NCBI RefSeq assembly: GCF_002775205.1
Contig: NC_036460.1
Span: forward strand, 4,407,902-4,471,901
Source of the DNA: Xiphophorus maculatus
Taxonomy: Eukaryota; Chordata; Actinopteri; Cyprinodontiformes; Poeciliidae
Reading direction: 5' to 3'
Length of the DNA stretch: 64,000 nt
The translations under genes were made by a program, and so were the position numbers. Each line of letters begins with the position of its first letter. Positions within the stretch are counted from its first letter, which is position 1. Below the pieces are notes generated by a model, which worked only from the letters and a program-made list of their open reading frames with translations, was not told the DNA's origin and did not search any database. Positions 18,601 through 62,020 of this stretch are shown piece after piece.

Positions 18601-21600
18601 TAATTGATTTTTTCTACATGTTTACAGCCCAGGAAACTTCCAGTAAACTTCTTAGTGTGGATCTGGTGCATTGCATGTCATGGACAAACGTTAGCAACTG
18701 GGTGAAATTTAAAAGCTCAACACAGTCCAGACTCTCTGGATGAATCAAAGTGTAGTTACAGAGTGGCTGGTTTTTACCAGGTTAGTGATTTAATGAAGTT
18801 TGATTAGATTAAAGGGGAACCAGTGGAGCAGATTCAGGGTTATAAAAACCTCAATGTCATTGAGAAGAAGCTGATCAAATATTGAACTTCCTCCACAAAT
18901 TAAGTTTAAAGTGTAAAAAGATGATAGTTTTCTATTATTCTGTGATTAAATCTGTTCTCACATTTGCTTTGCAGAAGACAAGGATGAAATATTAATAATT
19001 GATAATTCATAGGTTCTTTGTGATGTTGTAGTGTAATTTTCTCTGTTTGTCTTAAGTTTTTTTCCCACCCATCTCCAGGGCCGGCCTGCAGTATAAGCAG
19101 ATGCTAAAAGTGCAAAGAATATTAAACAGTAGATTTAAAAATAACAAAACTCTGCCCAGCTCCCCTCTCCACCCGTTCTCCACTAGTTGGTTGGTTCCTC
19201 CACCCAGAGTCTGCTCTGTATTGGAGCTTTGCTGAACAAACTGGAACCAAATTCTGTGAAAATGTTGAAGAAACTTTTTTCTTTCTGCATCCACAGACTC
19301 AGTCAGGCTGGTTCAAGGGACCAACCGGTGCTCAGGCAGACTGGAGGTGAAGACCAACCAGTCGTGGTCCTCAGTGTGTGAAAAAGACTTTGACCTGCAG
19401 GATGCAGAGGTGGTCTGCAGGGAGATTAGCTGTGGGCCTCATTCAGTCCACCAGGGGGCGCTCTATGGAGAAGCAGAGGCTCCAGTGGGGAGCAGAGAGT
19501 TCCTGTGTGAAGGCAGTGAGTCTGCTCTGCTGAACTGCAGCAGCAGGAAGAGTTCAGGTAGAAACAGCTGCTCACCTGGTCAAGCTGTTGGACTCACCTG
19601 TTCAGGTAGAGGAGGATCTGCAGACCTGCTGCTGTTCACTGCTTCACTTCCTTCATTAATGAACTCTCTGTCTCTGCTCAGATCAAGACAACATCAGGTT
19701 GGTGGGAGAGGCCAGCCGATGTGCCGGGAGACTGGAGATGTTACATCAAGAAGAGTGGAGACCAGTGAATGTTTGGCTTCATTACTGGACCATGAACTTA
19801 GCTGCTGCAGTTTGTGCTGAACTGGACTGTGGTTCTGCTGTTTCAGCAAGAAATTCAGAGGAAACTTCAAAGAGACCAGTTTGGGGGATCAGTTCTGGCT
19901 GTTTCCAGTCAGGATCTGCATTAAAGAACTGTTTACCTCATGGTGTAAGCAGTGATCAGAGCCATGAGATCATCTGCTCAGGTAACTCTGAACTCTCATA
20001 TTTATTTCTTTTAAAATGTTTCTTCCATCAGGTTCCAGATGTCTGCAGAGAAACCGTCACCTTTAACTAAGAACCTGAAACCTTGAGGAGAGAGAAACTA
20101 AAATAATTTAAATATCCAGATAAAGTTTTCAGTTTAGCCACATAGATGAACAAAAACTCATCATTTTAATAACTTTTAATCTCTGCTGCTTTGAAGTCGA
20201 TGCATCAAAATCCCAGGAGGAGTTCAAGGAAATCAGACATTTTCAAAACCTGAAAATTAACAGAAAATGGCTTTTGATCCAAAATGGTGGACTTCCTGTT
20301 TTTAGTGAAAATAGCAGGAAAACCTTTTGTTTGTTATGGTTGTTGGCCTGGCTGATCTAGGGGGCGCTGTTCAGCCAATTTTTCACATTTATTTTTAAAT
20401 CCAATTTAATAATAATTTCACAGAGTATAAAATTTGTTTGACATTTAGTGAGTTTATTAACATGTTTATGTCCCAAAAATCTGATAAATTCAGCAGAAAT
20501 AAAAATGAATGATAAAATTCCAGGTACAGTCGGTTTCACTTCACCTTTGATGCTCTGAGTTTTTCTAGTTTGGTTTTCTTGGCCTTTATTTTTATCAAAC
20601 TCAGAGATGTTTCCATGTGTATCTATAAAATAAAGTTCTGAAATATTTTAAACCTTTTTTCTTTCTGCATCCACAGACTCAGTCAGGCTGGTTCAAGGGA
20701 CCAACCGGTGCTCAGGCAGACTGGAGGTGAAGACCAACCAGTCGTGGTCCTCAGTGTGTGAAAAAGACTTTGACCTGCAGGATGCAGAGGTGGTCTGCAG
20801 GGAGATTGGCTGTGGGCCTCCTTCAGTCCACCAGGGGGCGCTCTATGGAGAAGCAGAGGCTCCAGTGGGGAGCAGAGAGTTCCTGTGTGAAGGCAGTGAG
20901 TCTGCTCTGCTGAACTGCAGCAGCAGGAAGAGTTCAGGTAGAAACAGCTGCTCACCTGGTCAAGCTGTTGGACTCACCTGTTCAGGTAGAGGAGGATCTG
21001 CAGACCTGCTGCTGTTCACTGCTTCACTTCCTTCATTAATGAACTCTCTGTCTCTGCTCAGATCAAGACAACTTCAGGTTGGTGGGAGAGGCCAGCCGAT
21101 GTGCCGGGAGACTGGAGATGTTACAACAAGAAGAGTGGAGACCAGTGGATGTTTGGGAAGGTTACTGGGACATGAACTCAGCTGCTCCAGTTTGTGCTGG
21201 ACTGGACTGTGGTTCTGCTGTTTCAGCAAGAAAGTCAAAGGAATCTTCAAAGAGACCAGTTTGGAGGATCATTTCTGACTGTTTCTGGTCAGGATCTGCA
21301 TTAAAGAACTGTTTACCTTCTGATGATGGAAACAGTGATCAGAGCCATGAGATCATCTGCTCAGGTAACTCTGAACTCTCATATTTATTTCTTTTAAAAT
21401 GTTTCTTCCATCAGGTTCCAGATGTCTGCAGAGAAACCGTCACCTTTAACTAAGAACCTGAAACCTTGAGGAGAGAGAAACTAAAACTGGTTTAAATATT
21501 ACTGACAGACTATAGATCTATCATAAAGGTGCTAGTAATCATGTTTAAACATGCTAGTAACCATGGCAACCAGTCTGTGATCAGCTCCTGTCTCTTTCTC

Positions 21601-60900: not shown

Positions 60901-62020
60901 GAGAAGAAGCTGATCAAATATTGAACTTCCTCCACAAATTAAGTTTAAAGTGTAAAAAGATGATAGTTTTCTATTATTCTCTGATTAAATTTGTTCTCAC
61001 ATTTGCTTTGTAGAAGACAAGGATGAAATATTAATAATTGATAATTCATAGGTTCTTTGTGATGTTGTAGTGTAATTTTCTCTGTTTGTCTGAAGTTTTT
61101 TTCCCACCCATCTCCAGGGCCGGCCTGCAGTATAAGCAGATGCTAAAAGTGCAAATAATATTAAACAGTAGATTTAAAAATAACAAAACTCTGCCCAGCT
61201 CCCCTCTCCACCCGTTCTCCACTAGTTGGTTCGTTCCTCCACACAGAGTCTGCTCTGTATTGGAGCTTTGCTGAACAAACTGGAACCAAATTCAGTGAAA
61301 ATGATGAAGAAACTTTTTTCTTTCTGCATCCACAGACTCAGTCAGGCTGGTTCAAGGGACCAACCGGTGCTCAGGCAGACTGGAGGTGAAGACCAACCAG
61401 TCGTGGTCCTCAGTGTGTGAAAAAGACTTTGACCTGCAGGATGCAGAGGTGGTCTGCAGGGAGATTGGCTGTGGGCCTCCTTCAGTCCACCAGGGGGCGC
61501 TCTATGGAGAAGCAGAGGCTCCAGTGGGGAGCAGAGAGTTCCTGTGTGAAGGCAGTGAGTCTGCTCTGCTGAACTGCAGCAGCAGGAAGAGTTCAGGTAG
61601 AAACAGCTGCTCACCTGGTCAAGCTGTTGGACTCACCTGTTCAGGTAGAGGAGGATCTGCAGACCTGCTGCTGTTCACTGCTTCACTTCCTTCATTAATG
61701 AACTCTCTGTCTCTGCTCAGATCAAGACAACTTCAGGTTGGTGGGAGAGGCCAGCCGATGTGCCGGGAGACTGGAGATGATACATCAAGAAGAGTGGAGA
61801 CCAGTGGCTGTTTGGGATCGTTACTGGGACATGAACTCAGTTGCTGCAGTTTGTGCTGAACTGGACTGTGGTTCTGCTGTTTCAGCAAGAAATTCAGAGG
61901 AAGCTTCAAAGAGACCAGTTTGGAGGATCTGGTCTGACTGTTGGAAGTCAGGATCTTCATTAAAGAACTGTTTACCTTCTGATGGAAACAGTGATCAGAG
62001 CCTTTACTTCATCTGCTCAG
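57907..62020 (+). CDS. SRCR/Ig receptor gene 3, 5' part
   Basis: Exons seen: 57907-57952 (signal peptide), 59844-60053 (shortened SRCR), 61336-61644 (eight-Cys SRCR) and 61721-62020 (six-Cys SRCR). All keep splice sites and phase, and the frame is open. Intron 1 is only 1.9 kb because it lacks the L1-A and LTR of its sisters. After the last exon comes L1-B, then the window ends; further SRCR pairs, the Ig domain, membrane and tail exons are expected beyond it by comparison with gene 2. Whether the gene is complete cannot be judged here. Confidence 0.75.
58260..58525 (-). pseudogene. Tc1/mariner-like relic, block 3 copy
   Basis: Third copy of the WPANGPDQNLIENLW fragment. Confidence 0.6.
58530..59490 (-). 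mobile_element. Old L2 relic, block 3 copy
   Basis: Uninterrupted version of the relic at 16501-17460; it shows the empty sites of both L1-A and the block 2 solo LTR. Confidence 0.7.
59844..60053 (+). CDS. Gene 3 exon 2: shortened SRCR domain
   Basis: 70 codons, two more than in genes 1 and 2 (DNWNWDWNFTSAAG has an added WN-type repeat). It starts RRRCVGRLEKKDLGDWKPV and ends NYNVEIVCSG. Same four cysteines. Confidence 0.75.
60054..61335. other. Intron 2 of gene 3
   Basis: Near-identical to the intron in genes 1 and 2; nothing coding recognised. Confidence 0.6.
61336..62020 (+). CDS. Gene 3 exons 3-4: first SRCR pair
   Basis: The eight-Cys exon (61336-61644) matches the consensus (KTNQSW, REIGCGPP). 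The six-Cys exon (61721-62020) reads AVWDRYW, RIWSDCWK and LPSDGNSDQSLY, and its end is YFICSG. The DQDNFRLV start and GNSDQS loop are shared with gene 1's second pair. Confidence 0.85.

Follow-up and report, generated by a model that had tools for sequence, protein, structure and literature searches.

A hypervariable six-cysteine SRCR domain in tandem SRCR/Ig genes of Xiphophorus maculatus

How can one exon of a tandemly repeated gene differ in nearly every copy when the intron beside it hardly changes? The question is raised by a 64,000-nucleotide stretch of the 704-Mb Xiphophorus maculatus genome (C18:4407902-4471901, here called the window), which contains three tandem genes, A, B, and C, of a teleost family that protein database matches annotate as "M130/M160/WC1.1-like". 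Splice-consistent models of the three genes encode the same order of parts, namely, a signal peptide, a short SRCR domain, a variable number of modules made of an eight-cysteine (eight-Cys) and a six-cysteine (six-Cys) SRCR domain, an Ig-like domain, a transmembrane (TM) segment, and a short tail, with two modules in gene A, three in gene B, and at least one in gene C, which is cut by the window end. An initial annotation, made from the window sequence, had proposed that diversifying selection acts on a ligand surface of the six-Cys domain, possibly with shuffling of variants between copies. Our analysis supports as likely, from sequence comparisons, that these genes specify teleost SRCR/Ig membrane receptors in which the six-Cys SRCR has turned into a hypervariable domain for recognition, diversified by selection beside homogenized or recently duplicated flanks.

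A variable exon between uniform neighbors

The six six-Cys exons of the window lie where the initial annotation had placed them and carry the motifs that it quoted, and the 76-bp intron between the two exons of a module, which it described as hardly changing, is identical in all six copies. In the six-Cys exon, substitutions occur at 37 codon columns, of which 21 are multistate or multibase, and there is one codon indel besides. Most differences had been said to change the amino acid; the pattern is in fact stronger, as all 37 columns do so and none is synonymous only (the probability of finding no synonymous column is 1.4e-5 over all 37 and 0.008 on the 16 single-change columns alone). In pairwise comparisons, nonsynonymous divergence (dN) of the six-Cys exon is 0.08-0.15 versus a synonymous divergence (dS) of 0-0.05, and the corresponding eight-Cys values are 0-0.03 and 0. 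The three loops named as variable are indeed so, but the list was incomplete, with a fourth variable stretch at codons 57-63 and weaker sites at 20-22. The eight-Cys exon is far more uniform, as claimed, though all seven of its variable codons are nonsynonymous.

In a sliding-window comparison of the three duplicated units, most of the unit shows 0-5 differences per 100 nt, against 5-18 within the six-Cys exon; the short N-terminal SRCR exon reaches 9, and values are high too at both unit ends, where the units stop aligning well. Noncoding DNA further off is less uniform than the 76-bp intron, with 0.6-1.3% differences in the two upstream introns and 4-5.8% over the ~490 nt directly 3' of four of the six-Cys exons. 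The three N-terminal SRCR exons vary in similar stretches, with two of 14 substituted columns synonymous. This domain is a short form that retains only C1, C3, C4, and C8, without the C5-C6 region, and its first loop has a length variant of two codons.

SRCR family search matches extend on C18 to at least 1.66, 3.21-3.38, 3.87-3.99, and 4.43-4.52 Mb. From C18 stretches we collected 54 modules, requiring the 76-bp intron within 9 substitutions, a definition under which remnants and copies with intron indels fall outside the set. All 54 complete modules are open; among them, 53 six-Cys proteins and 10 introns are distinct. The order of parts is identical in nine complete genes, with 5, 5, 4, 5, 1, 8, 3, 2, and 3 modules, and in the cut gene C, and across the array genes the signal peptide and tail are invariant and the Ig domain nearly so. 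Nucleotide diversity (53 copies) is 0.0096 in the intron, 0.0143 in the 3' flank, 0.0143 in the eight-Cys exon, and 0.0981 in the six-Cys exon. In the six-Cys exon, 40 of 100 columns have common amino acid variants and only one has common synonymous variants; the eight-Cys counts are 6/102 and 0/102. C2 is absent from all 54 six-Cys copies and one copy lacks one further cysteine; 28 of 100 residues, including five of the six cysteines and two tryptophans, are invariant. The variable eight-Cys codons include 20 (N/D/S), 44 (G/S), 47 (P/S/L/H/A), and 79 (N/K/D/E). One eight-Cys exon of the 54 (C18:3950109-), which has an in-frame insertion, was excluded from the eight-Cys statistics; such an insertion inside the eight-Cys exon, at locus L032 (C18:3949200-3952400), was noticed in this sole case among the 54.

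Selection, age, and exchange between copies

The initial annotation had suggested dN/dS, with the intron as neutral baseline, as a check, and neither outcome that it named as refuting its proposal (dN/dS at the loops not above 1, or an intron as divergent as the exons) was obtained. Over the 54 copies, the ratio of nonsynonymous to synonymous diversity (piN/piS) is 11.0, 2.9, and 3.1 in loops 1, 2, and 3, all above 1, and piN at these loops is 19-25 times the intron diversity. By region, piN is 0.245 in loop 1, 0.217 in codons 57-63, 0.206 in loop 2, 0.187 in loop 3, and 0.055 in the remaining exon, and piN/piS is 3.6 over the whole six-Cys exon. Site models also favor positive selection. For the six window copies, custom-coded codon models gave dN/dS (omega) values of 11-13, with twice the log-likelihood gain (2dlnL) of model M2a over M1a at 76-93 on three topologies. 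For the 54 six-Cys copies, omega is 5.3-6.9, 30-34% of sites have a value of 8.3-9.5, and 2dlnL is 417-746; for 53 eight-Cys copies, omega is 1.6-2.3, with 7-12% of sites at 7-16 and a 2dlnL of 26-142. As recombination would break the single-tree assumption, the star and tree runs are given as a range. Positive selection is thus present in both exons and far stronger in the six-Cys exon, for which diversifying selection is well supported.

Could the contrast instead reflect age, the six-Cys exons being old, divergent paralogues and gene conversion having homogenized the eight-Cys-intron block and the flanks wherever conversion was tolerated? Diversity at fourfold sites is ~3.5 times higher in the six-Cys exon (0.0205) than in the eight-Cys exon (0.0058), and eight-Cys repeats look concertedly evolved, their within-protein divergence being 0.21 of the between-lineage value versus 0.59 for six-Cys repeats. 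The flanks are young or homogenized and the six-Cys exon, by its synonymous sites, is somewhat older. Age alone, however, would add synonymous changes, whereas piN/piS reaches 11 in loop 1 and no window column is synonymous only, and we regard this explanation as unlikely to account for the pattern. As nonsynonymous diversity of the six-Cys exon is 3.6 times its own synonymous diversity, diversifying selection is favored, which would also preserve six-Cys variants, the uniformity of the rest being maintained by conversion or recent duplication.

The suggested shuffling between copies is supported only in part. In its favor, linkage is near zero beyond ~10 nt (mean r2 0.095 within 10 nt and 0.02-0.06 beyond, 54 copies) and one cassette is clearly shared: among the 54 copies, codons 85-88 read GTT TTC TAT GAA solely in M3, the first module of gene B, and in a copy 451 kb away, and these two have 20 differing codons from 19 to 72 and a single one thereafter, convincing evidence of one exchange between copies. 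By contrast, the pairwise homoplasy index (PHI) test of the six-Cys exon is not significant (p 0.27 for six copies, 0.22 for 54), and a search of this exon for gene-conversion tracts found no excess of codon runs of at least 20 (5 observed vs 10.6 expected), with nucleotide runs above the permuted mean and within its maximum. Mantel tests (54 copies) weakly correlate loop 1 with codons 57-63 (r 0.23), loop 1 with loop 2 (r 0.23), and codons 57-63 with loop 3 (r 0.14), with no correlation for the other three pairs. Since the PHI and codon-run tests are not significant, exchange and recurrent parallel change are not separated. The linkage pattern and the cassette, found in two of 54 copies, would also suit a germline process, targeted mutation or cassette copying, that makes the six-Cys variants with selection secondary. 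Variable C/G sites lie slightly more often in WRCH/DGYW motifs (11/40 vs 18/100 as raw counts). However, an unselected mutator would leave synonymous changes, of which few are present, and with the PHI and codon-run results this leaves germline diversification very improbable as the main source of the variants. AID-like hotspot targeting, considered on the same raw counts, was set aside.

Variable sites, the SRCR ligand surface, and relatives in other fish

The proposed ligand surface finds support, by homology alone, in a match between the variable sites and published metal- and ligand-binding residues of SRCR domains. Passages of PMC7043408 place the surface metal ligands of DMBT1 SRCR8 at D1019, D1020, and E1086 (site 2) and at D1020, D1058, D1059, and N1081 (site 3), and report that D1019A and D1020A abolish function in the assays. 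Positions were transferred to the six-Cys exon by counting from conserved Trp and Cys residues in CD163 alignments and a DMBT1 consensus. On this mapping, we take codons 32, 33, 69, and 70 to be the equivalents of D1019, D1020, D1058, and D1059, and codons ~88 and ~93 those of N1081 and E1086. No sites of the exon vary more than 70 and 32, and mean entropy at 32, 33, 69, and 70 is 1.88 versus 0.62 overall (p = 0.0007; p = 0.00006 when 88 and 93 are added). The residues found are Y/D/S/L/N/F/T/E at 32, S/H/R/G/P/D at 33, I/L at 69, and S/R/W/Y/Q/M/K/N/I at 70, so that the acidic metal-dependent ligand site of the DMBT1 type is not retained, the loop 3 match being approximate.

The lost cysteines fall in the same loops, as C2 precedes the first ligand pair (loop 1) and C7 follows the N1081 equivalent (loop 3). 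In canonical SRCR domains C2 and C7 pair as a disulphide, and the lost bond would therefore have tied loops 1 and 3 together. The six-Cys exon keeps C1, C3, C4, C5, C6, and C8, whereas in group A SRCR domains C1 and C4 are the lost pair, leaving six. In SRCR group B each domain is encoded by one exon, as it is here (309 nt for eight-Cys and 300-303 nt for six-Cys exons). The eight cysteines of canonical group B are present in 53 of 54 eight-Cys exons; the six-Cys exons, having six cysteines in 53 of 54 copies, depart from this canon.

The arrangement extends to other fish. A protein search returned 2053 matches, of which the best 120 were examined. Strict alternation of eight- and six-Cys domains was found in 94 of these 120 and in 777 of 836 neighboring domain pairs. 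In all 111 testable relatives, that is, those with at least two domains of each class after filters dropped 9 of the 120, resemblance among repeats was higher for the eight-Cys type (mean 94%) than for the six-Cys type (65%); the set includes isoforms and consists of the matches most similar to the query, which are not independent. Site variability along the window six-Cys domain correlates with that in 24 poeciliid proteins entered, other X. maculatus genes among them (rho 0.71), and in 95 proteins entered from other teleosts (rho 0.57); along the eight-Cys domain it does not (rho 0.11 and 0.15). Among the more distant matches listed, alternation occurs in Osmerus and Polymixia, and otophysan, eel, ray, and reptile proteins have mostly eight-Cys domains throughout; from these matches, the six-Cys type probably arose within euteleosts. 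Three Xiphophorus species, window included, yielded 33 distinct six-Cys domains, none of them identical across species, in a database whose clustering at 90% may hide shared ones. At a second X. maculatus locus (L038, C14:5168600-5173600), two eight-Cys exons agree at 98 of 108 residues, and the three six-Cys exons beside them share only 35-38 of 92-93 residues.

Gene architecture, signaling, and a possible receptor system

The features of the window are collected in Table 1. Introns of the window gene models are GT-AG, and the SRCR profile PF00530 matched all seven SRCR frames tested above its cut-off, an eighth frame tested being the Ig exon. The models of genes A and B comprise 660 (stop included) and 862 codons; joining M3 and M4 of gene B, separated by a gap of ~10 kb, into one transcript is part of the model. 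A database protein of X. maculatus, P0106, is an exact match to gene A in its N-terminal SRCR and in both SRCR domains of M1, eight-Cys and six-Cys. It appears as an isoform of gene A that lacks module M2 (20677-21364) and whose six-Cys exon begins 6 nt further in, indicating module skipping and a twin splice acceptor. As all module exons are of phase 1-1, modules can be skipped. Intron 1 of gene A holds a long interspersed nuclear element (LINE)-like retrotransposon (7381-16196), with a stretch resembling open reading frame 1 (7381-8325) and a reverse-transcriptase-like one (10816-12186), named from the look of their translations; the first introns of genes B and C are much shorter. Rfam and tRNA searches gave no match.

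Table 1. Exons and other features of genes A, B, and C, numbered from the first nucleotide of the window
Feature	Position	Strand	Basis or remark
Gene A signal-peptide exon (MDQTALMLLLCLCSS)	6618..6663	+	same in all 10 copies of the examined sequence
Gene A short N-terminal SRCR exon, C1/C3/C4/C8 only, varies in similar stretches	17811..18014	+	Pfam SRCR 3.5e-9
Gene A M1 eight-Cys SRCR exon	19297..19605	+	Pfam SRCR 7e-20
M1 76-bp phase-1 intron	19606..19681	+	identical in 6/6 window copies; each of the remaining exon pairs encloses one of the five others
Gene A M1 six-Cys hypervariable SRCR exon	19682..19981	+	exact match in P0106
Gene A M2 eight-Cys SRCR exon	20677..20985	+	gene model
Gene A M2 six-Cys hypervariable SRCR exon, loop 3 longer by one codon	21062..21364	+	gene model, alignment
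Gene A Ig-like exon	21669..21998	+	Pfam ig 2.8e-5
Gene A TM exon with Arg (LIIRLVVVLLG)	22201..22286	+	gene model
Gene A cytoplasmic tail and stop, no tyrosine	22363..22455	+	gene model
Gene B signal-peptide exon	30500..30545	+	gene model
Gene B short N-terminal SRCR exon	33081..33284	+	gene model
Gene B M3 eight-Cys SRCR exon	34566..34874	+	gene model
Gene B M3 six-Cys hypervariable exon	34951..35250	+	gene model, alignment
Gene B M4 eight-Cys SRCR exon	45494..45802	+	gene model
Gene B M4 six-Cys hypervariable exon	45879..46178	+	gene model, alignment
Gene B M5 eight-Cys SRCR exon	46875..47183	+	gene model
Gene B M5 six-Cys hypervariable exon	47260..47559	+	gene model, alignment
Gene B Ig-like exon	47864..48193	+	gene model
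Gene B TM exon, Lys at the place of gene A's Arg	48396..48481	+	gene model
Gene B cytoplasmic tail and stop	48558..48650	+	gene model
Gene C signal-peptide exon; gene continues past window end	57907..57952	+	gene model
Gene C short N-terminal SRCR exon, first loop longer by two codons	59844..60053	+	gene model
Gene C M6 eight-Cys SRCR exon	61336..61644	+	gene model
Gene C M6 six-Cys hypervariable exon	61721..62020	+	gene model, alignment

In all nine complete genes the tail has no tyrosine and is invariant in sequence, and one TM position is occupied by Arg in four genes, Lys in one, and Ser in four. Because the tail lacks tyrosine, signaling would run through an adaptor where the TM segment has a basic residue, and we infer that the basic forms would pair with an FcRgamma-like adaptor, a basic TM residue being a mark of FcRgamma/DAP12-coupled receptors; the Ser forms, we speculate, may be uncoupled partners or decoys. 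The three residues at one position possibly mark coupled and uncoupled receptor forms. A crude basic-before-hydrophobic pattern run on 220 relatives found Arg in 57, His in 9, Lys in 6, and nothing in 146, many of which lack a TM segment or escape the pattern, so that these counts carry little weight.

Known systems share parts of this design. CD163/M130, CD163L1/M160, and WC1, from which the database names derive, are also chains of SRCR domains on a type I membrane protein, and CD163 chains are the best solved-structure sequence matches. In contrast to them, the present genes alternate two SRCR types, one of them hypervariable and without C2 and C7, and have an Ig domain before the TM segment and a tyrosine-free tail; CD163 and WC1 tails carry signaling or endocytic tyrosine motifs, and WC1/SCART receptors are expressed on gamma-delta T cells. 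In the exon-accelerated snake venom phospholipases A2, introns of recent tandem copies are likewise more conserved than coding exons, but these are secreted venom proteins with no alternation inside one protein. DMBT1/SALSA belongs to the same domain family, with its metal-dependent ligand site at positions that vary here; according to passages of PMC7043408, DMBT1 SRCR1-13 are 88-100% identical and have the metal site, whereas here that site is lost and diversified. Mammalian FCRLS combines Ig-like FCRL and SRCR-like domains, but is a single unusual gene, a likeness drawn from the description in part of PMC7940838. Massive SRCR expansions occur also in sponges and sea urchins, where the opening of the abstract of PMC10855680 does not mention alternating conserved and hypervariable domains. 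In the open-access literature, judged by titles and abstract openings, we found no description of such alternation or selection in SRCR genes.

Several observations weigh against the interpretation of the six-Cys domain as a selected recognition surface coupled to signaling. The eight-Cys domain is itself under weak positive selection, and it too lacks most canonical surface metal residues. The higher synonymous diversity of the six-Cys exon means that part of the contrast is age and not selection alone. Ile is nearly fixed at position 69, the D1058 equivalent; variability at the counterparts of the buried site-1 ligands (36 and 39) is not significant (p = 0.22); and without C7, loop 3 can be matched to N1081 and E1086 only approximately. 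A basic TM residue is present in only five of nine genes, the other four having Ser. Finally, BLAST searches found some decay in a 190-kb stretch with 28 modules, namely, a six-Cys exon that has no partner and two eight-Cys remnants of 38 nt each; no such remnants were found in the L028 stretch or the window. With the loss of two cysteines and of the metal ligands, and of one more cysteine in one of 54 copies, this decay would fit a six-Cys domain released from constraint and varying neutrally. That explanation is contradicted by dN/dS above 1 and by all 54 modules being open, and with 28 of 100 residues invariant and nonsynonymous diversity above both synonymous and noncoding diversity we consider it extremely improbable. 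Since only three remnants stand beside 54 open modules, the dN/dS result is unaltered. The partnerless exon (C18:3236079-3236375, L012 region) also lacks its acceptor AG, its own frame is open, and a domain matching it, judged by eye, is present in database protein P0138; the two remnants (C18:3221848 and C18:3343337) are eight-Cys exon starts with intact acceptors that run into the same foreign sequence.

In the mechanism that we propose, the tandem genes, which in the complete ones seen have one to eight pairs of a uniform eight-Cys and a hypervariable six-Cys SRCR, would encode type I membrane receptors. The six-Cys domain has lost C2, C7, and the acidic residues of the surface metal site, and in these very loops the residues now differ in nearly every copy, with diversifying selection on this surface acting alongside homogenization or recent duplication of the flanks. 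The receptor would most likely bind variable, probably pathogen-derived, ligands and, in genes with a basic TM residue, signal through the adaptor paired with it. Ligand, cell type, and immune role are here inferred from sequence. Hypervariability in a large receptor array would also fit polymorphic recognition of self, as in kin, gamete, or allorecognition. Known SRCR receptors act mostly in host defense, which makes recognition of self a rather improbable alternative to pathogen recognition. Suggestive in the same direction, a T-cell cluster of cod with expression of putative tcrg and tcrd has an M130-like SRCR gene as marker, as given in part of PMC9276791, a gene possibly outside the present SRCR-Ig family; among the 120 names listed by a further protein search, aimed at a link to cod T cells, none was cod.

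More tentatively, the array could be a germline-encoded variable-receptor system of euteleosts, in which the freed metal face of the SRCR fold serves as a three-loop surface resembling complementarity-determining regions, one to eight variable domains are mounted on near-identical spacers, and module skipping, alternative TM forms, and perhaps per-cell choice of gene multiply the repertoire. SRCR domains are usually viewed as conserved pattern-recognition modules; here, one SRCR type is very strongly diversified at its presumed ligand face, and its neighbor within each protein is far more uniform. The natural six-Cys variants, presented on a nearly constant scaffold, offer material to ask what SRCR loops bind, and the family may be an overlooked group of variable immune receptors in fish, laboratory models included.

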